Shown here: positions 8,066 to 20,267 of the stretch, one piece after another
Layout of the letters: each line of letters starts with the position of its first letter
Numbering within the stretch: position 1 is the stretch's first letter
DNA from: a virus
IMG/VR virus record: IMGVR_UViG_3300035698_007011
Span: 1-21,022 of that record
DNA: 21,022 nt
Strand: one strand, 5' to 3'
Translations under genes and position numbers: made by a program
The notes under the pieces: model-generated
Databases searched by the model: none
The model's input: the letters and a program-made list of their open reading frames with translations, nothing else
What the model was told of the DNA's origin: nothing

Positions 8066-8755
8066 TTATTCTAAAGAGGTTAAGTTTGGTCTTCTACATC
8101 TTATTACTTTCGTTGTTAATACTCACATACTCTTTAATGCTTTCTGTATCTCTACCTCAGCTTCTTGTAGTGAGTCGTTCTTCTTATCATATAATGTCAT
8201 CTCTTTGAATATAGCTGGACACATCATATAAGATATTACTTCATGGTATAATGGGTCTATTAATATATCTTCATCTGTACTTACTGCTGTTAGGTCATAT
8301 GGTGCTTTAGCTCATTCTATAAGTAATCATCCAACAACCGTTACTGTAGGTGTAGGGAATATATGTATAAATTTATTATCTGTTATGATAGCGAACGGTT
8401 CTTCTGTTGACTGGTTCTCTGCGTATCGTTCAGGTGTCTCTGTTAACATATCCCAATCAGTGAATGTTACATTAATGAAATCATCCGTAGAAACATATTT
8501 TATTCTTAGATTCTCTGGTTTAAATATACCGTATGTTGAACCACTAGGTTTAGATAACATATATTCAAACTGGTCTTCTGTAACATCAGTTGTCCATTTA
8601 TCCCAAAAATAGTTCTTGTCAAGGTTGACAATCTTCTTATATAAGTCTCTATATGATTTATTTAACATAATCAATATATCATCAGAATCTATTTGACCCT
8701 CACTTATCCCTCAAGCTATCCTTCTTGCATAATTGATTATTCCACTAGCATCCAT
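8066..8755 (-). CDS. head-tail connector/adaptor protein
   Basis: The protein has 229 aa, from ATG 8755 to TAA 8066, with four TGA among roughly ten Gly codons. The N-terminus MDASGIINYARRIAGG, followed by an acidic segment, DDILIMLNKSYRDLY and an aromatic segment (KNYFWDKWTTD), matches the helical layout of phage head-completion proteins that plug into the portal. These typically read 'D.dlL..lN.ay.el...i...dyf'. A middle beta region (QFEYMLSKPSGSTYGIF) and a helical, charged C-terminus follow. Its place after the capsid genes and before the large tail protein fits an adaptor. A later ATG exists at 8674, but the upstream start adds the conserved-looking first helix, so I chose 8755. The function is inferred from pattern and synteny. 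Confidence 0.75.
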
Positions 8756-8818: not shown

Positions 8819-9148
8819 CTATTTACCCCATCAAGATTTCTTTGTAATTTTAGTTTTAGTTTTCTTAGTTACTTTTTTCTTCTCTACTGGAACTTGTATA
8901 GGCTCAACACTTTCTGTGTCGCTCTCTATAGTTTCTGGAGCAATGACAACTGGTGTTTCTTCTTCTTTTTTATCAGTATCTTTTATCACTTCTTCAAATT
9001 TACGTTGTGATAAATCCATCATCTGTCCAGCATCTTTCTTTGGTTGTTCTTTGTTAAGTCTTGTAAGGATAGCTTCTTTGTCTTTTACAAAGTCTTCTGT
9101 TGCTATACGTACTCCGTTAACGGAAATAAATTGTTTAGGTCAGCTCAT
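8819..9148 (-). CDS. small Lys/Glu-rich protein following the capsid gene
   Basis: A 109-aa frame starts at ATG 9148 and ends at TAG 8819, one of only two TAG stops among the complete genes. It starts MSGPKQFISVNGVRIATEDF, continues with a charged helical part, then an acidic, Val/Pro-containing linker, and ends in a basic tail (KKKVTKKTKTKITKKSGWGK). I do not recognise a family. It sits after the major capsid gene and its terminator-like hairpin and before the connector. It could be a head-associated or DNA-binding internal protein; the basic tail would suit DNA contact. It is in the same frame as the connector gene downstream. Confidence 0.7.
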
Positions 9149-9180
9149 TTTTAAAATAATTATAAATATAAATAAATCCC

Positions 9181-9199
9181 TGAGGGGACTAGCCCCTCA
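9181..9199 (-). terminator. terminator-like hairpin after major capsid gene
   Basis: TGAGGGG-ACTAG-CCCCTCA forms a perfect GC-rich 7-bp stem in an otherwise AT-rich genome. It lies 12 nt after the capsid stop and is followed on the minus strand by a T/A-rich run (ATTTATTTATATTTATAATT). This fits an intrinsic terminator or attenuator that lowers expression of the tail genes relative to the capsid genes. Confidence 0.7.
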
Positions 9200-9211
9200 A
9201 AGATAAATTGG

Positions 9212-10185: not shown

Positions 10186-10210
10186 AATTTAATAAATAAA
10201 AGTTGTATTA
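10186..10210 (-). promoter_or_regulatory. AT-rich leader element, copy 2 (before major capsid gene)
   Basis: Read on the minus strand, TAATACAA then C then TTTTATTTATTAAATT ends 8 nt before the capsid ATG. It matches the element at 10651-10676 almost exactly (8 and 16 identical bases around a 1-2 nt difference). It may be a phage promoter core, an RNA-processing signal or a U-rich ribosome-binding leader. Confidence 0.5.
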
Positions 10211-10224
10211 TGTGTTGTAAATAA

Positions 10225-10641
10225 TTAGTAAAGGAATTTGTTAATTCTAACTTTAATTTCGCTTGCTGAATTAACTACTCCAGCGTCAGTACCGATTGAT
10301 ACTTTGAATACATTAGTAGAGCTAGACCCAACATCAATTTGTTGTGCTGTTCCAGACAATACTAAATCAACTTCAGTTCCTCTTTGTGTTCCAGCGAAAA
10401 CAGCGTCTCCTGTTCCTGTAAATTCAGCTTCTGAATCATTAAGAACTTGAACGGTAGTTTCACCATCAATAGCTCCGTTAGGAGAGAATGCGATTTCGGT
10501 AGAAGATGCTGTAGCTTTAGTAGCAAGACCAGATGTTAGGTCTACCATATCTCCAGCTTCAATAACTGTAGCAGAATCCTTTGAAAGTGTTTTCATAGGC
10601 ATTCCTTTTACGTAGTTATTTACCAATTTAAAATCTGCCAT
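10225..10641 (-). CDS. capsid decoration-like protein
   Basis: The protein has 138 aa, from ATG 10641 to TAA 10225. It is Thr/Ser/Ala/Gly-rich, with a beta pattern: TLSKDSATVIEAGDMVDLTSG near the start resembles small head decoration or head-fibre proteins that present a beta-tulip or beta-sandwich on the capsid. The end (VNSASEIKVRINKFLY) is a typical closing strand. It lies between scaffold and major capsid genes, the usual place for decoration proteins. None of its 13 glycines is TGA, so it reads as one frame in the standard code too. Likely abundant, as it shares its leader with the capsid gene. A trimeric capsid-stabilising role is inferred. Confidence 0.7.
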   Translation of the reverse strand: MADFKLVNNYVKGMPMKTLSKDSATVIEAGDMVDLTSGLATKATASSTEIAFSPNGAIDGETTVQVLNDSEAEFTGTGDAVFAGTQRGTEVDLVLSGTAQQIDVGSSSTNVFKVSIGTDAGVVNSASEIKVRINKFLY

Positions 10642-10650
10642 AATTAGTAA

Positions 10651-10676
10651 AATTTAATAAATAAAAATTTGTATTA
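10651..10676 (-). promoter_or_regulatory. AT-rich leader element, copy 1 (before decoration-like gene)
   Basis: TAATACAA then AT then TTTTATTTATTAAATT on the minus strand ends 9 nt before the decoration-like ATG. Its first TAA is also the scaffold stop codon. It is near-identical to 10186-10210. Two copies in front of two capsid-shell genes suggest shared control of transcription or translation. Confidence 0.5.
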
Positions 10677-11246
10677 GTCTTCTGTTCTTGGTTTAGATAC
10701 TTTAGGGACAGTAAATAGTTCTTTGTACTTAAATCCTGCTTCCTTTTTCTCAAAAGTTCAGTAATTTTTACTTCTATCACCAAGTATCTGGTTTCTGTAA
10801 GCTTCATCTCTCAACATCTTTCATCTAACTACATCGTATGCAGTATCAATGTCAAACCCTTTCTCTTCTTGAAGTTTCTTAATCTCAGGTAGGAAATCTT
10901 TAGCGTCTTCATTCTTTTCAAGAAATGTTTTTTCTTGTGAATCTTCTGTCTTGATTTCTTCCATCATTAATCTAACATCTTCTTTAGAAAACGATTTGTC
11001 TTTGTTTTTTGAGTGTTTCTTGTAACCATCTTTGAGTTTATCATATAAACCCTTGTTTTTAGTTTTAAGTTCTTCAACTTCTTTCTTCAATGTTTCTTTT
11101 TCATCGTCAGTAGCTTCTTCAGATTCTTCTTCAGATTCTTCTTTAGATTCATCATCGTTTTCAGTAGTTTCTTCTTCTTCTGTTTCTACAACTTCTTCTT
11201 CAGTAGTTTCAGTACCTTCTGTGTTAGTAGTTTCAGTGGTTTCCAT
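10674..11246 (-). CDS. scaffolding protein
   Basis: This protein has 190 aa, from ATG 11246 to TAA 10674. The N-terminal 50 residues are almost only Glu/Thr/Asp/Ser (TEETE-type repeats). Next comes a coiled-coil-like Lys/Glu segment (about 50-85), a charged helical middle, and a C-terminus with basic and aromatic residues (FKYKELFTVPKVSKPRTED). Acidic coiled-coil proteins just upstream of the capsid gene are typical phage scaffolds, which bind coat protein through a charged C-terminal hairpin and leave the procapsid. Two of about eight glycines are TGA; the first (in VVRGKM) would truncate the protein at 141 aa in the standard code and remove the coat-binding end. No protease gene is seen nearby. 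Confidence 0.75.
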
Positions 11247-11274
11247 GTGTAATAAATAATTGATAAAATGTTTA

Positions 11275-11290
11275 GGAGTTTTATCACTCC
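11275..11290 (-). other. weak hairpin in gap before scaffold gene
   Basis: The 61-nt gap 11247-11307 holds a 5-bp stem (GGAGT / ACTCC, 6-nt loop), then an AT-rich stretch up to the scaffold ATG. The stem is short and has no strict T-run, so a terminator or leader structure is only a possibility. Confidence 0.25.
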
Positions 11291-11307
11291 AGTGGTCTTA
11301 TCATACC

Positions 11308-13697: not shown

Positions 13698-15203
13698 TTA
13701 TACTCATAAGGTGTCTATAAACCTAGCTTTACGCTTAAGTTTATATAATTTTTCTAGTGGAGACTTATCCTTTTTACTTAACCAATCAGCGTGAACAGCC
13801 TTTGTCTGTATATTCTTCATAAATCAATTCAACATCATAATAGCCATAGAAAGTGCATCAATAATATCGTCATGCTTACCGTTAGGGAATTTTAGCAGTT
13901 GAGCTTCTAGCTCGTTTACATTTTTTCATCTAAGTTGATGTATAATAGCAACGTTATTATATCTAGGTTGTAGAGCTGATAAAATTTTAGCTTCTTTATT
14001 CATAGAAGATGTCTGTCATTCTAACAGAAAGAAGTTATTTCTTTTCTTCATCTCTTTTCTTATCTCTATCTCAAGCATCTTTTGGTATGAGTTTATCTCT
14101 ATACCTACCTTCTGTGGGTGGAAAGTATTTACTACATTAAATAGATTGTTTATAATCTCATCTGGTAGCATCTTTCATCTCCTTACATCAATTACATACA
14201 CATTATTATTCTCTTTGTCAAGACCAACAGTTACTATTGATGTATCATCAGCTGTCTGCTTTTGGCTAATCGCTGGGTCAACAAACGTTACAACCTGTAA
14301 GTCTTTGATATATTTAACTCAGTAGTTATCAAATATCTCTCATTTATCGTAGTATGTGAAGTATTCTCACTTAAACGCTCAACCTCATTCATTGATAGGG
14401 TCTCACATATACATAGCTTGGAATAACGACTCTCCCATAGTCTGTCTTTTCTTTTCAATAAGCTCTTTAGGGTGTTTCTCTGGTCGTATAACGCTTCAAT
14501 CTTCGTTAAATACTGGTATATTCAATACTTCTCGTTCATCTCATTCCTTTTCTAGTAGTCTACCACATAAATCATCCTCATGCCATCTAGTCATTATAAT
14601 AATAGTAGCTGTTTCTCAGTGTACTCTTGTTAACGGTACTGAAGTATACCAATTCCATACTTTATTTCTTATTAATGGGCTTTGTGCTTCCTCATAATCC
14701 TTATGCGGGTCATCTATTATCATTTTGTCAACCGTTTTACCTGTTAACGAACCTCATACACCTACAGCTCTATAAGAACCTCATTTAATTGTATTCCATT
14801 CTGTAATACTTTGGCTATTGGGGTCTAATAACTCACCAAATAACGCTTTATATTGGTCTGTCTTAACTAAATCTCTTGTTTTACGTGAGAAACCTTCTGA
14901 AAGCTCTGCTGAGTAAGACGCTAACGCTACATTCTGGTACATATTCTTACCTAGAGTCCAAGCAGGATAACCTACGGACGATATAGAGCTCTTACCATGC
15001 TGTGCTGGTACATTAATCATAAGTTTCTTAAGTTTACCTCTCTCTACTCTCTCAAAAGCTTCTATTATTTTCCTATGAAACTCTTTAAGTACATATCAAC
15101 CTCATGGGCTATGTGCGTACGGGTCAGTATACAACATAAACTGTGTTAGATTATCTCTAGCGAGTTTCTCTGGGTTGAAATCTTTTAATATATTATCTGT
15201 CAT
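13698..15203 (-). CDS. terL: terminase large subunit (ATPase and nuclease)
   Basis: The protein has 501 aa, from ATG 15203 to TAA 13698. The ATPase domain has the Walker A motif VPAQHGKSS (about 65-73) and the Walker B motif KMIIDDPHKD (about 159-168). Between them EWNTIKGGSYRAVGVGGSLT has TGA at the conserved Gly positions, a strong proof of UGA=Gly. The RNase H-like nuclease domain has a first catalytic Asp in VDPAISQKQTADD (about 309), a central Glu in KVGIEINSYQ, and the C-terminal Asp pair in KHDDIIDALS (about 444-450). It cuts concatemers and drives DNA into the procapsid through the portal. The start overlaps the preceding glycosyltransferase gene by 11 nt. Identification is secure. 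Confidence 0.96.
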
Positions 15204-16320
15204 TAAGTTTTATAGTAGCATCTAAAATTCAACATACTCATTTATTCTTTTTAATCTTTCTATGTAGTGTAAAATCCTCTAACTTTGTAGGGATAGGTAC
15301 TACTAATTTTAAGTCTACTGTTTTCATAGCCCAACAATGTGTAACTATATTATCGTTCCTAAACATAGCTCAAGTTCATCATAATGTCAACGGTCATGTG
15401 ATAGTAGATTCTCTTAATCATCTAATAAGCTCTATATCTAAACTATATGGTATCTCTATATTGTCAAAATAAGCTACATAGTCTGTTGTTATAGAACTAA
15501 CATCATCTTCTGTGATAGTATCTCATACGATATGACATATATAGTTAGATTTAATATTATTTAACAAATGTTTTTCTATTTTGTCAAGATTTCATTCTTT
15601 AAGTAATATGGTTATCTCATCATCTCAGTTTTCACAATACATTGATTTATTTATACTTACTGGTCAGTTGTCTCATATGTGTTTACATAATACTCTAGTA
15701 TCAGCGTTTATATAATACATCATAGAGGTAGCTCTTTCACAAAAACATATATCCTCACTTATTACTAACGAACTTACCTTATCTAAATCTGTTAACGGTT
15801 TATCAAACAAATACTCTTTTCATTCATAGAAATACATAGTCTTCATCTCAAACAGGTTATCACCATATACATTAACCATATCTTTAAGTATAGATGTCTT
15901 GATTAGTAAACATCATGCTCAACAAGCGTCAACTTTATGTATAGTACCTATCGCTATGTTAATCTTATTGACATTATAATAAAATGGTTTATCTCATTTA
16001 ATTTTATTGTATATTAATAGTTTTTTATCTCATCATCTAGCTCTATATAATCATGTTGTGATTCATAACCCAGTATATATCATCTTTACAAGAACGTCTT
16101 TAGGTGGTATAGTATCGTCATCAACAAAGAATAGATATTCGTATCATCATTCAATAGCTGATTTAACATACATATTCCTAGCTATATCTATAGGTGTCCT
16201 TTTAATAAATGAAACAGTTTTACTATAACCTTTAGGGATAATTAAACTATCTAAGAAATTTATAATATCTATAGATAGTTTTCAATCAAATGTAGGTATT
16301 GCTATAAGGATTTTTTTCAT
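15193..16320 (-). CDS. GT-A fold glycosyltransferase (family 2-like) with extra C-terminal domain
   Basis: The protein has 375 aa, from ATG 16320 to TAA 15193. It begins MKKILIAIPTFDGKLSIDI, a typical GT-A first strand, then RTPIDIARNMYV and the metal-binding DDD in YEYLFFVDDDTIPP (about 62-74). The acceptor region includes VDACGAGCLLI (about 126-136, both Gly are TGA) and ISEDICFCERA with the HIGD motif. Such enzymes transfer a sugar from a nucleotide donor to glycan or protein acceptors in the cytoplasm. About 120 further residues at the C-terminus are unassigned. It starts 1 nt after the 239-aa glycosyltransferase gene and overlaps terL by 11 nt, so it is part of one transcript with packaging genes. 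The acceptor is unknown. Confidence 0.85.
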
Positions 16321-16321
16321 C

Positions 16322-17041
16322 TTAACAGTCAAATATAAAATCTTCTTGTAGGTCGTCTTCTGGTAAAGGATATACATCAACAACATCCCATCATTTTTCA
16401 TCAGCTATCTTAAAGAATACTGGTCTATCTACATTAGGTACATAGAAAGCTGTCTGACTTTTGAGATGATGGCATATAGCGTCATGTTTTACTTTCTGTC
16501 TAAACCCTAAATCTTTTATATGGAATCATAACCAGTTATCGTTACCGAATATTCTCATCCTCTCATCTATAGGAAAGAACTTATCTTTGTTCTCTTTCTT
16601 AAAGGTAAAACAATGTCAACATATATGATTACCATAATACATCAACGGACTAGGTTGTAGTCTATCTCATTCTCTAAATCTAGGATTAACTATACCTATA
16701 TTCTCATCATCATCAAACCCATCAATAATCTTTTCAAAGAACTCTTGTGGGAAGATAACATCGTTATTAATAACAGATATATATTCTCACTGAGCGTACT
16801 TTACTCATTGATTCCATGCTACAGTAACACCAACATTCTCTTCAAATTTATAATATTTAATCTTACCTTCTGATTGGTTATATAATGAAGCAACAATCTC
16901 TCATGTATCGTCTGTACTTCAGTCATCAATTACAAGTAACTCGTAATCTATGTTTCTACATACATCTAATATATTTAATATTGCTTCCTGTGTTAGATGT
17001 GATTTATTATACACAGGCATAACTAAAGATAATTTAAGCAT
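16322..17041 (-). CDS. family 2 glycosyltransferase
   Basis: The protein has 239 aa, from ATG 17041 to TAA 16322. It shows the classic GT2 signature: MPVYNKS (8-14), VIDDGSTDDT (about 39-48) with the Gly encoded by TGA, then AWNQGVKYAQGEYISVINND (about 76-95), whose NND corresponds to the metal-binding DXD. The C-terminal part (MRIFGNDNWLGFHI) fits the catalytic ED/DND region with a trailing helix. No transmembrane segment is visible, so it is a soluble cytoplasmic transferase using a nucleotide sugar. It overlaps the methyltransferase-DUF616 gene by 8 nt. The acceptor is unknown: virion fibre, host surface glycan, or phage DNA are possible. Confidence 0.92.
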
Positions 17042-18254
17042 CTGATAAGTGTCATTCTAAAAATGTTATATATTTATTATGTCGTAGATTTCCATCTGTT
17101 TCTAACCATTTTCTGTTAATATTATATTTATACGCTATTGGTTCAAACGATAACTGGTCTTGATATGTTCGTTTTACATTCTCATCCCATCGTTTTTCAA
17201 AGAAATCAAGTATTTTATCAGTTATTTTATATATAAGTAATCAAGAAGCGTTTAATCATCAATGTAATGGGTATCACTCAGCAATATAGTGTTCAGCTTG
17301 TTTTTTTATAGGTAATCCTGTGTATTTTTTCCACCTAATGTCTCATCAACTATGTATAAACATAGCTTCATCCATTATGCAGTCCCTTTCAGGGTGTTTA
17401 AAACACACTATATCGTTATCTATATTTTGTTTAATGAAATACTCTATAGAATCCTCTCTTTTAAGTCTAGCTGTACCATCCATATACACAATCTGTGTAC
17501 CTTTATCTCGTTTTGGGTGCATCCTATATCGTTTAGCTCTCATTCTATTATGTAAATCTTTATTATTATCACATAATATAACTTCTCGTTGTTTTTCTGC
17601 TCATCTTTCTATTGCTAGTTCTTTGTTATCAGTGAAACATATAAATTTACAGTTCTTTGTTTGGTTAGGTTGTAGTTTAAGTGTATCGTAGCCACCAAAT
17701 ATAGCCGTAAACACTGTTACTACTGGCTCTGTTTTCCTTCTAAGGATAGTTAATCCGTTATTGTTATCAAACACCTTAAGTTTCTCTCGTTCTGGGTACT
17801 CAGCAATATAATCGTTTATAGCTGGTAGTAATCATTCATCTTTAGTCTCTCAATGGTCTCAGAAAGATACCGTATCATGGAACGCTATAAATCTTCTAAC
17901 CTTAGGTGCGTGTCTTTTAAGCTCCTCTCTAAGTAGTTCTCCGTTATGAAGAGTATCTATAAACAGCATATCTGTTTCAACTATATCTATCTCACGAGTA
18001 TCTCATGTATTGAATTTCCAGTTTGGACATAATCATTGTAGTTGTTCTACTGGCTGTGTGCTCTCTAAATCATACGATACCACATCATCACATCACATAA
18101 GTAAAGCGTGTGAGCTTAACGCTGTCCTTACTCACATCTCTGTAACAGTATCACATAACGAAGCCAACCGTTTAAGTGTTGGTAAGTGTTCGTTTATGTC
18201 TGATTTAGTTTCGCATAATATATTATACTTCTCAATTAGCTGTTCATTCATCAT
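17034..18254 (-). CDS. fused SAM methyltransferase-like and DUF616 glycosyltransferase-like protein
   Basis: The protein has 406 aa, starting at ATG 18254 (or 18251) and ending at TAA 17034. The N-terminal half (about 20-165) looks like a class I SAM-dependent methyltransferase: EMGVRTALSSHALL (motif I, Gly is TGA), VVSYDLE (acidic end of strand 2), DMLFIDTLHN and FIAFHDTVSFG. The C-terminal half (about 178-400) matches the DUF616/TOD1-like glycosyltransferase pattern: VFTAIFGGYDTL, FICFTDNK, NRMRAKRYRMHP, QIVYMDGTARL (Asp-based donor site), HPERDCIMDEAM and TYQDQLSFEPIAY. The pairing suggests addition and O-methylation of a sugar. It overlaps terS by 32 nt upstream. The substrate is unknown, and the DUF616 assignment is by recalled motif only. 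Confidence 0.8.
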
Positions 18255-18837
18255 TTAACGGTTTAGATTCTAAAATTTCTCATTGTATTATCTCTCATTT
18301 TTGTTCTAATCATTCCATATACTCTTTAAACATCTTTTTCTTTTGGTCTTCAGTTATGCTCTCTGTTCTTGTTGTTGTTTCTTTCTTATCTGTCCAGTTA
18401 AGGTCTGACATCCCTACACTCTTTACTACTTGTGCGTTCCATAATCAATTTAAACCATTGTTTACCAACATATCTTCCTGCATATCTTTAACTAGCTCTA
18501 CTGCTTCTCTAAGCTCTTCGTAGTTATTTATCCAGTAACTCCATTTAGAGCTTGGTATCTTATGCTTAACACGGAATCATGCTACGGTTGGGTAATCATA
18601 CGCTTCTTTAACCATAAGTCAGGTAGCTTTATCTTTCCTTTTCCTATATTTAGGTGTAGAACAAAATTCCACCAACATCTTAGAGAAGTTCTCGTTATAA
18701 GTTATCCCTCTCCATAGTATATTGTTGTTGATGATTATCATCTTCTTTAGCCCTCTACCTTTATTGTTATCTCCTTTAGGGTTGTTTGGGTTCTCGTTAG
18801 TTAGTAACGGGTTGTTCTCTGTTTTGATTCTCTTCAT
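18223..18837 (-). CDS. terS: terminase small subunit
   Basis: The protein has 204 aa, from ATG 18837 to TAA 18223. After a basic, Asn-rich N-terminus, the segment from about residue 74 (MVKEAYDYPTVAGFRVKHKI, then a Trp-containing turn SYWINNYEELREAVELVKDM) matches the DNA-binding helix-turn-helix of DNA-packaging small terminases ('P...gla..lgvs...Ly.W......f......i...q'). The next part, DMLVNNGLNGLWNAQVVKSV, matches their oligomerisation segment 'll..gl.g..n..i....l'. It recognises phage DNA and loads the large subunit. The C-terminal tail is charged. The ATG at 18837 gives a 41-nt overlap with the 153-aa gene; a later start is possible. It is separated from terL by three transferase genes. 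Confidence 0.82.
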
Positions 18838-19258
18838 TTCATCATTCTTTAGATAAATTAGCCATCTGCTCTGATTCTAGTTTCCTTCCTATCCCCATAT
18901 ACCTTCTATCTCAAAGATTTATACTTGATAGGAACGCTTCTAATTCTATTTTATTCATATCATATACATGGTCTAGCTTCTCTGCTATGTTCTGTAAGAC
19001 CTCGTTTGTTACATCGCTGGCTTTCAAAATAGAACCTCATTTTTCTAGGAACTCTATAAAACCTTTGTTATCAAACATATTAATAAATAACTCTAAATCC
19101 ATATTTATTACTGGGTCTTTGGTGTATTCTATGTTCTCTGTGTTACAATCTCTCTCGTATACAACAAATAACTCGTATCATTTACTTATCTTCTTAATCT
19201 TTATAGCCCAGTCGTTACTTATTCACCACTGTCATAATTTAAAATCTTTTATTTTCAT
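18797..19258 (-). CDS. unknown protein upstream of small terminase
   Basis: The protein has 153 aa, from ATG 19258 to TAA 18797, with several TGA-Gly codons. It starts MKIKDFKLGQWGISNDWAIK, continues ELFVVYERDCNTENIEYT (beta hairpin-like), then helical parts (VTNEVLQNIAEKLDHVYDMN) and ends in a polar EGGNEENQN tail. I recognise no family. It overlaps the GT-D gene by 10 nt upstream and terS by 41 nt downstream, so its 3' end is read in two frames. A role with the terminase or with the glycosyltransferases cannot be decided. Confidence 0.7.
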
Positions 19259-19881
19259 GTTGTATCTAAACGGGTTAAAATGTCTTTATGGTAATCTCTT
19301 GTGTGTTTTCATACATATGGGTCAAATGCTGAACCTATATCTATCTGTGTTATGTCTCTTTTATATTTATATATATCGTCTATTAATACATTAGCCATCA
19401 TACTAGCACAGTATATAACAACACAACCTGTATCTATATTTTTCTTTATCTCTAATAGTATCTCTTTATAAGATAACCGACAGTTATTATCAGGTATCTC
19501 TATAAACACTCATCATAGTAATCATTTTAAATATGATGGTCATACCATGACTATATTATTAGGCTTTAGTATAGCTATCAACTCATCTAGCCCGCTATCT
19601 ATACTCTTGTAATGGAATATATCAGCTCATACCCAATTATCTATATTAAATGTTTCCATATATTTCGGCATAATCTGTTTTACTAATCATTGTAATCATA
19701 ATATATACTCTGGTTTAGATGCTAGTATCTCTCTAAGCCTTTTACCTAACTCTGGGAAGTATGTATGTCAATCACAGTTCTCTCATCAGTTGTTCTTCAT
19801 ACAAAGGAACTCTCAATCTCACCATCTACTGAAAGAGAAATACTCTCAGTTTGCTATCTTATCTAGTATCTCTGTATACAT
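19249..19881 (-). CDS. GT-D fold (DUF1792-like) glycosyltransferase
   Basis: The protein has 210 aa, from ATG 19881 to TAA 19249. The N-terminus has SFSRWGDGEFLCM (about 17-29), in which both Gly are TGA; this is the donor-binding signature of GT-D enzymes. It is followed by HTYFPELGKRLREILASKPE, a middle VGPSYLKGLLG region, and a C-terminal VVIYCASMMANVLIDDIY and IDIGSAFDPYVGKHTRDYH, typical of the same family. The last codons read through a TGA (DTTGK) before TAA. GT-D enzymes add a hexose to protein-linked or other glycans. Here the enzyme heads a run of sugar-transfer genes in the packaging module, so it may act with the other three. The acceptor is inferred to be a surface glycan or virion protein, not shown. 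Confidence 0.85.
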
Positions 19882-19988: not shown

Positions 19989-20267
19989 TTAAAATATATT
20001 ACCTTTACATTTATTTCATATACTAAGGTCATCATGCTCGTCTATCTTGCCTGATACCCACTGCTGGTATCAAACCATGCTCTCAGTCCTAACGCTTACG
20101 GTACTATCCTCTATATCAGCACTATATAAATCTATATCTCTATGTAGATACTCTAATATACTGTAAAAGGCTGCCTTGTACTGGTATAGCTTCGCTTCGT
20201 TAGCTTTTCTTATCTTCTCTCTTCAGTCTCTTTCTTGCTGTGTTCTCTGTATAATCATACTTGACAT
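19989..20267 (-). CDS. small helical protein, unknown function
   Basis: The protein has 92 aa, from ATG 20267 to TAA 19989. It begins MSSMIIQRTQQERDGREKIR, a strongly charged helix, then KLYQYKAAFYSILEYLHRDI, an amphipathic helix, and ends GKIDEHDDLSIGNKCKGNIF. Three TGA-Gly codons interrupt it in the standard code. The helical content would suit a small packaging or DNA-binding accessory protein, but I recognise no family. It follows the HNH gene by 44 nt. Confidence 0.65.

Follow-up and report, generated by a model that had tools for sequence, protein, structure and literature searches.

A doubled UUUA element before the capsid-region genes of a code-25 phage as a probable copy of a Shine-Dalgarno-free translation start signal

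Known start signals and the phage record

In E. coli, AU-rich binding sites for ribosomal protein S1 are known upstream of start codons, and S1 captures mRNA just upstream of the Shine-Dalgarno (SD) region (PMC4611024, which cites Boni 1991 and Komarova 2005 for S1 sites in leaders). Other bacteria, the Flavobacteriia among them, are SD-scarce and lack the CCUCC of the 16S tail; candidate division SR1/Absconditabacteria has already been placed in this class (PMC10783764, Table 4), and the passages of that paper that deal with SR1 name no replacement motif. A search of the open-access literature, with subscription papers and preprints outside its coverage, turned up no earlier description of a UUUA start signal.

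The element described here resembles the S1 enhancer in being U/A-rich, unstructured and located upstream of the start codon, and an S1-like protein is present in the inferred hosts. However, the leaders of the window, by which we mean the whole 21,022-base virus record that was analyzed, differ in that a defined UUUA core stands at constant spacing from the start of most genes and no SD motif is present, and the role of S1 in them is a predicted one. Like the SD-scarce bacteria, the code-25 hosts have lost the 16S CCUCC and almost lack SD motifs, whereas a Flavobacterium phage used as a control has no strong TTTA. Similar to an SD site, the element is position-specific and precedes nearly every gene, including operon-internal ones, but it has no purine-rich core, lies at about -20 rather than about -10, and its pairing with the 16S tail is unsupported. 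With the sigma70 -10 box it shares AT-richness; unlike that box, it occurs inside upstream coding sequence, keeps a fixed distance to the start codon and has no -35 partner.

Every gene of the record lies on the minus strand, and long open reading frames tile it under genetic code table 25, being open only if TGA encodes an amino acid. In-frame TGA codons occupy glycine positions throughout the window genes (46 in the 708-aa tail gene, for example), with the assignment to glycine and not tryptophan taken from table 25. The terminase large subunit (TerL) matches Pfam and PHROG terminases and has TGA-recoded relatives (L010, G044:C187, L286, L290, L293, L295 and L350), of which G044:C187 is a contig of a genome in the Gracilibacteria class. 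The same recoding in these nearest TerL relatives, together with the phage's own code, points to a code-25 bacterium as the likely host, presumably one of the Gracilibacteria that read UGA as glycine. Code-25 phages of such bacteria are already known (PMC10746230). To find the host lineage, genomes were searched for EF-Tu/IF2-type GHVDHGKT motifs in which TGA encodes the second glycine, and many Gracilibacteria contigs were returned. Rfam and tRNA scans returned nothing, and a single-sequence scan of IMG/VR found no relatives of the capsid, TerL and portal proteins. Upstream of TerL, at 15193-19881, several genes resemble glycosyltransferases and other sugar- or cell-surface-type proteins by eye. 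The TerL of a related code-25 phage (L135:3689-5992, on G044:C187) is split by an intein-like insert of about 300 aa, which breaks the match at residue 161, starts with CILKGEKINTDKG and finishes with VHNC.

The paired element and its surroundings

The element was found exactly where the first-pass annotation had placed it, on the minus strand at 10676-10651 and 10210-10186, 8-9 nt before each ATG, and the first TAA (10676-10674) does serve as the stop codon of the scaffold gene, as that annotation had stated (Table 1).

Table 1. Positions of the leader elements and of related features in the window
Feature	Position	Strand	Remark
Leader element of putative major capsid gene	10186..10210	-	TAATACAA-C-TTTTATTTATTAAATT, 8 nt before ATG
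Leader element of decoration-like gene	10651..10676	-	TAATACAA-AT-TTTTATTTATTAAATT, 9 nt before ATG
Putative major capsid protein gene, 321 aa	9212..10177	-	Named by gene order only
Decoration-like gene, 138 aa	10225..10641	-	Named by gene order; no database match
Scaffold-like gene	10674..11246	-	Leader has ATTTTATC, TTTA at -21
SU10-type adaptor gene	8066-8755	-	Database match
Terminator-like hairpin directly after capsid gene	9176..9204	-	
Probable true start at Met28 (initial ORF call at 16401)	16320	-	TTTA restored at -19
Probable true start at Met4 (initial ORF call at 20267)	20258	-	TTTA restored at -21

Two TTTA cores are present in each leader, at -23 and -19 before the capsid gene and at -24 and -20 before the decoration-like gene, and the doubled core reads TTTATTTA in both. 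The exact 16-mer TTTTATTTATTAAATT has only these two copies in the record (10186-10201 and 10651-10666, minus strand), each preceded by TAATACAA (10203-10210 and 10669-10676, minus strand). On its own, the 8-mer occurs at chance frequency (5 found, 3.2 expected). Allowing up to three mismatches gives 4 copies of the 16-mer in the window against 5.3 expected, no enrichment, and looser copies therefore form no family. The exact composite element is absent from IMG/VR. The two leaders share an in-register 17-mer and, beyond a 1-nt indel, TAATACAA further upstream. Real leaders from three code-25 genomes (G004, G005 and G008) would yield 0.02-0.03 same-register (±2) 17-mer matches per 210 pairs, and the 21 window leaders, which also form 210 pairs, contain one. 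The likeness of the two capsid-region leaders is beyond chance, modestly so and not to an extreme degree.

This extra likeness would be best explained if one leader had been copied from its neighbor or if a strong form of the signal had been selected for, and the shared TAATACAA suggests copying. We give nearly an even chance to a local leader duplication without extra function, in which the decoration-like gene arose beside the capsid gene and a copy of the leader came with it. The two genes are adjacent, their leaders have TAATACAA and 17 nt in common with a 1-nt indel, and no gene was called between scaffold and head gene in the relatives L010 or L135; however, the upstream and downstream flanks of the two leaders are unlike. 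Such a duplication concerns only the question of why the two leaders are so alike, and it is compatible with, not opposed to, the reading of the element as a translation start signal.

The capsid gene was assigned from its position, which PHROG major head proteins occupy in the relatives L286 and L010; its product has no significant database match, including among annotated phages and 353 genomes of the Gracilibacteria class. Single-sequence AlphaFold models were unusable (pLDDT 31 for the capsid and 34 for the decoration protein). TGA accounts for 1 of the 21 glycine codons in the capsid gene and 0 of 13 in the decoration-like gene, the lowest shares among window genes with at least eight glycines, as expected for high expression; avoidance of the recoded codon may be a mark of highly expressed genes. 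Several tail genes, unlike those of the capsid region, use TGA for half to nearly all of their glycines. For the following gene, which starts at 9148, the TTTA cores come from the T tail of the hairpin after the capsid gene. Another hairpin, at 11261-11303 just before the scaffold gene, beats all 200 shuffles (z -3.6); its stem holds the TTTA core of that gene and could regulate its start.

A TTTA core in phage and host leaders

TTTA starts at -24 to -19 in 19 of the 21 window genes as first called (binomial p ~2e-20 against a background of 7%; the background at these positions is 7-10%) and in 17 of 19 when the two capsid-region leaders are set aside. If the starts of the two exceptions are moved to later in-frame ATGs, at 16320 and 20258, the count becomes 21 of 21. 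Since TTTA was first spotted by eye in these leaders, the p-values are to be read as a measure of strength, and the blind test is provided by a model trained on host genes. SD tetramers (GGAG, GAGG or AGGA, about 4-18 nt from the start) occur in none of the 21 leaders. The earlier description of the other leaders as AT-rich but not the same fails at the core, where TTTA is nearly universal.

The host-trained model was obtained by expectation maximization (EM) on 934 leaders from six code-25 Gracilibacteria genomes, seeded with an A/T-rich core and with the window outside the training set. It converged on WWTTTAWWW at about -20 (T.90, T.95, T.97, A.92; occupancy 0.72). Applied to the window, it separated starts from in-gene ATGs with an AUC of 0.94 (p=1e-10). 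Leaders of the code-25 genomes carry a T-rich, G-poor tract at -24 to -13, and SD tetramers are found in 0-8% of them. In G004, TTTTA peaks at -22 and -21 (40 and 35 of 471 genes); positions further upstream have about 3 each. The standard-code relative G013, which is also G+C-richer (48%), lacks the signal (TTTA 3% against a background of 5%), and two AT-matched control phages show it weakly, with 18% in a Flavobacterium phage without SD motifs and 16% in an SD-using Clostridioides phage. Among code-25 genomes it is weak in G071 and G086, which are richer in G+C. In other code-25 phages the motif is weaker (AUC 0.77). The leaders of two of them, L286 and L350, show a possible extra motif nearer the start (for example, AAACT just before the ATG), which suggests lineage-specific variants of the start signal.

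A leader that is simply AU-rich and free of structure, in which low structure and U content count and no specific sequence is read, appears improbable to us. The leaders are AT-rich and G-poor, and the two capsid-region leaders fold no better than shuffles, as such a reading would have it. Nevertheless, position and letter order are sharp: TTTA reaches 1.00 in the window, whereas the complementary tetramer TAAA, equal in AT content, reaches 0.10 at the same positions, and in G004 TTTA stands at 0.67 against 0.17 for TAAA and 0.18 for AAAT.

The first-pass annotation had considered a promoter core, a processing site and a ribosome-recruiting leader as alternatives. In genes that overlap the upstream gene, TTTTA is 14-fold enriched at -25 to -20 (38 genes, p=1e-6), and it is 7.6-fold enriched at intergenic distances of 12 nt or less. 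The motif of overlapping genes sits within the upstream coding sequence, which argues against a promoter. An AT-rich block acting as a -10-like box, from which separate transcripts of two abundant capsid-region genes would start, might account for a repeat before two genes expected to be highly expressed (those with the lowest TGA share among genes with at least eight glycines). However, no sigma70-like -35/-10 pair (16-18 nt apart) leading to either element was found on the minus strand, promoter-like sites are no commoner in the window than in shuffles (20 against 22.9), and TTTA recurs at constant spacing from the start of nearly all genes, overlapping ones included. We regard a promoter core as very unlikely; of the three alternatives, ribosome recruitment is the one that gains support, from a TTTA at about -20 across the genomes of phage and code-25 Gracilibacteria, even inside upstream coding sequence. 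Very unlikely, too, is a processing site at which an RNase E-like enzyme would cut AU-rich single-stranded RNA and so separate or stabilize the capsid messages; the element is AU-rich and unstructured, but a processing site leaves unexplained why the spacing to the start codon is fixed in most genes.

In L010, the portal leader and the gene that follows the capsid have promoter-like sites upstream of them (TTGACT-16-TATTAT and TTGACT-16-TATAAT), and the portal leader, downstream of such a site, carries a TTTA core. The window and L010 both have a terminator-like hairpin after the capsid gene; the capsid-region genes are therefore probably co-transcribed with upstream genes, and would then differ in their initiation rate.

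That the element is special to capsid genes is weakly supported. The two capsid-region leaders are doubled and score at the 92nd and 95th percentiles of host leaders, but the major head genes of four distant relatives (L286, L350, L010/L293 and L135) have leader scores that are not unusually high. Within the window, motif strength is correlated with TGA usage for glycine (rho -0.57, p=0.016, counting two starts that are probably miscalled), but motif score has no relation to the TGA share of glycine codons, taken as an expression proxy, in the host genomes. A capsid booster is unproven, and the capsid association is so far a feature of this phage.

The proposed signal, its reader and its meaning

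Taken together, the element is quite probably a doubled copy of a general, SD-free translation start signal of code-25 Gracilibacteria and their phages, with a WWTTTAWWW core (UUUA in the message) about 20 nt before the start; the two capsid leaders would be nearly alike because both contain the doubled signal. The observations made on the signal are its position, its sharing between phage and host, its presence in overlapping genes, the absence of SD motifs and the altered anti-SD tails of the 16S rRNA.

CCUCCU is absent from the 16S tails of eight code-25 genomes (G004, G005, G008, G014, G015, G055, G057 and G071), and CCUCC is kept in nearly all readable class relatives, including the standard-code G013. 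The code-25 16S 3' tails (L136-L139, L266, L270, L278 and L282) are highly variable at the otherwise conserved CCUCCU, even within one class. A re-invented SD pairing, in which UUUUAGAAU would pair with the altered 16S tail (UUCUAAAAC in G004) about 9 nt further upstream, is highly improbable in our judgment. The G004 tail AUUCUAAAAC is complementary to GUUUUAGAAU, and GTTTTA, TTTAGA and TTTTAG are the most enriched 6-mers with one G in that genome. However, the same TTTA motif is used in G005 and G015, whose tails have no complement, and a swap test over nine tails gave no preference for a genome's own tail. Own-tail pairing, which had looked compelling in G004, failed in this cross-genome swap. 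A group-specific 16S UAAA was also discarded: the sole site, TTAAA (6 of 7 code-25 and 0 of 9 other 16S sequences), lies about 210 alignment columns before GTCGTAACAAGG and is probably not at the mRNA exit.

For the proposed start signal, recruitment through S1 would be the likeliest route, although we put it at somewhat less than an even chance. An S1-like protein was detected in 8 of 8 code-25 genomes tested, covering approximately model positions 3-350 in most; all matches fall below the family cut-off, and the genomes are inferred hosts. bS21 was found in none of the eight genomes. In this mechanism, the unstructured U-rich site would be caught by the 30S ribosome on the side where mRNA exits, with S1 as the probable contact, and the AUG would thereby be placed; a core present twice in the capsid-region leaders may raise initiation. 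More speculatively, and to our mind doubtful, after the loss of the anti-SD sequence the Gracilibacteria with UGA as glycine could have evolved a dedicated, sequence-specific UUUA signal at about -20 whose reader would be some part of the ribosome other than the 16S tail; the phages of these bacteria might copy this signal and double it on capsid-region genes to out-compete host messages.

A lineage-wide SD-free start signal looks more interesting than a capsid-specific leader. Tight and fixed in position, and shared by a lineage whose anti-SD tail is degraded and by the phages of that lineage, such a tetranucleotide makes it directly testable how bacteria locate start codons in the absence of SD pairing. 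As a start-site model it is of practical use in the annotation of code-25 genomes and phages, two starts in the window having been moved by it, and the UUUA signal may serve as another mark for linking code-25 phages to their hosts.
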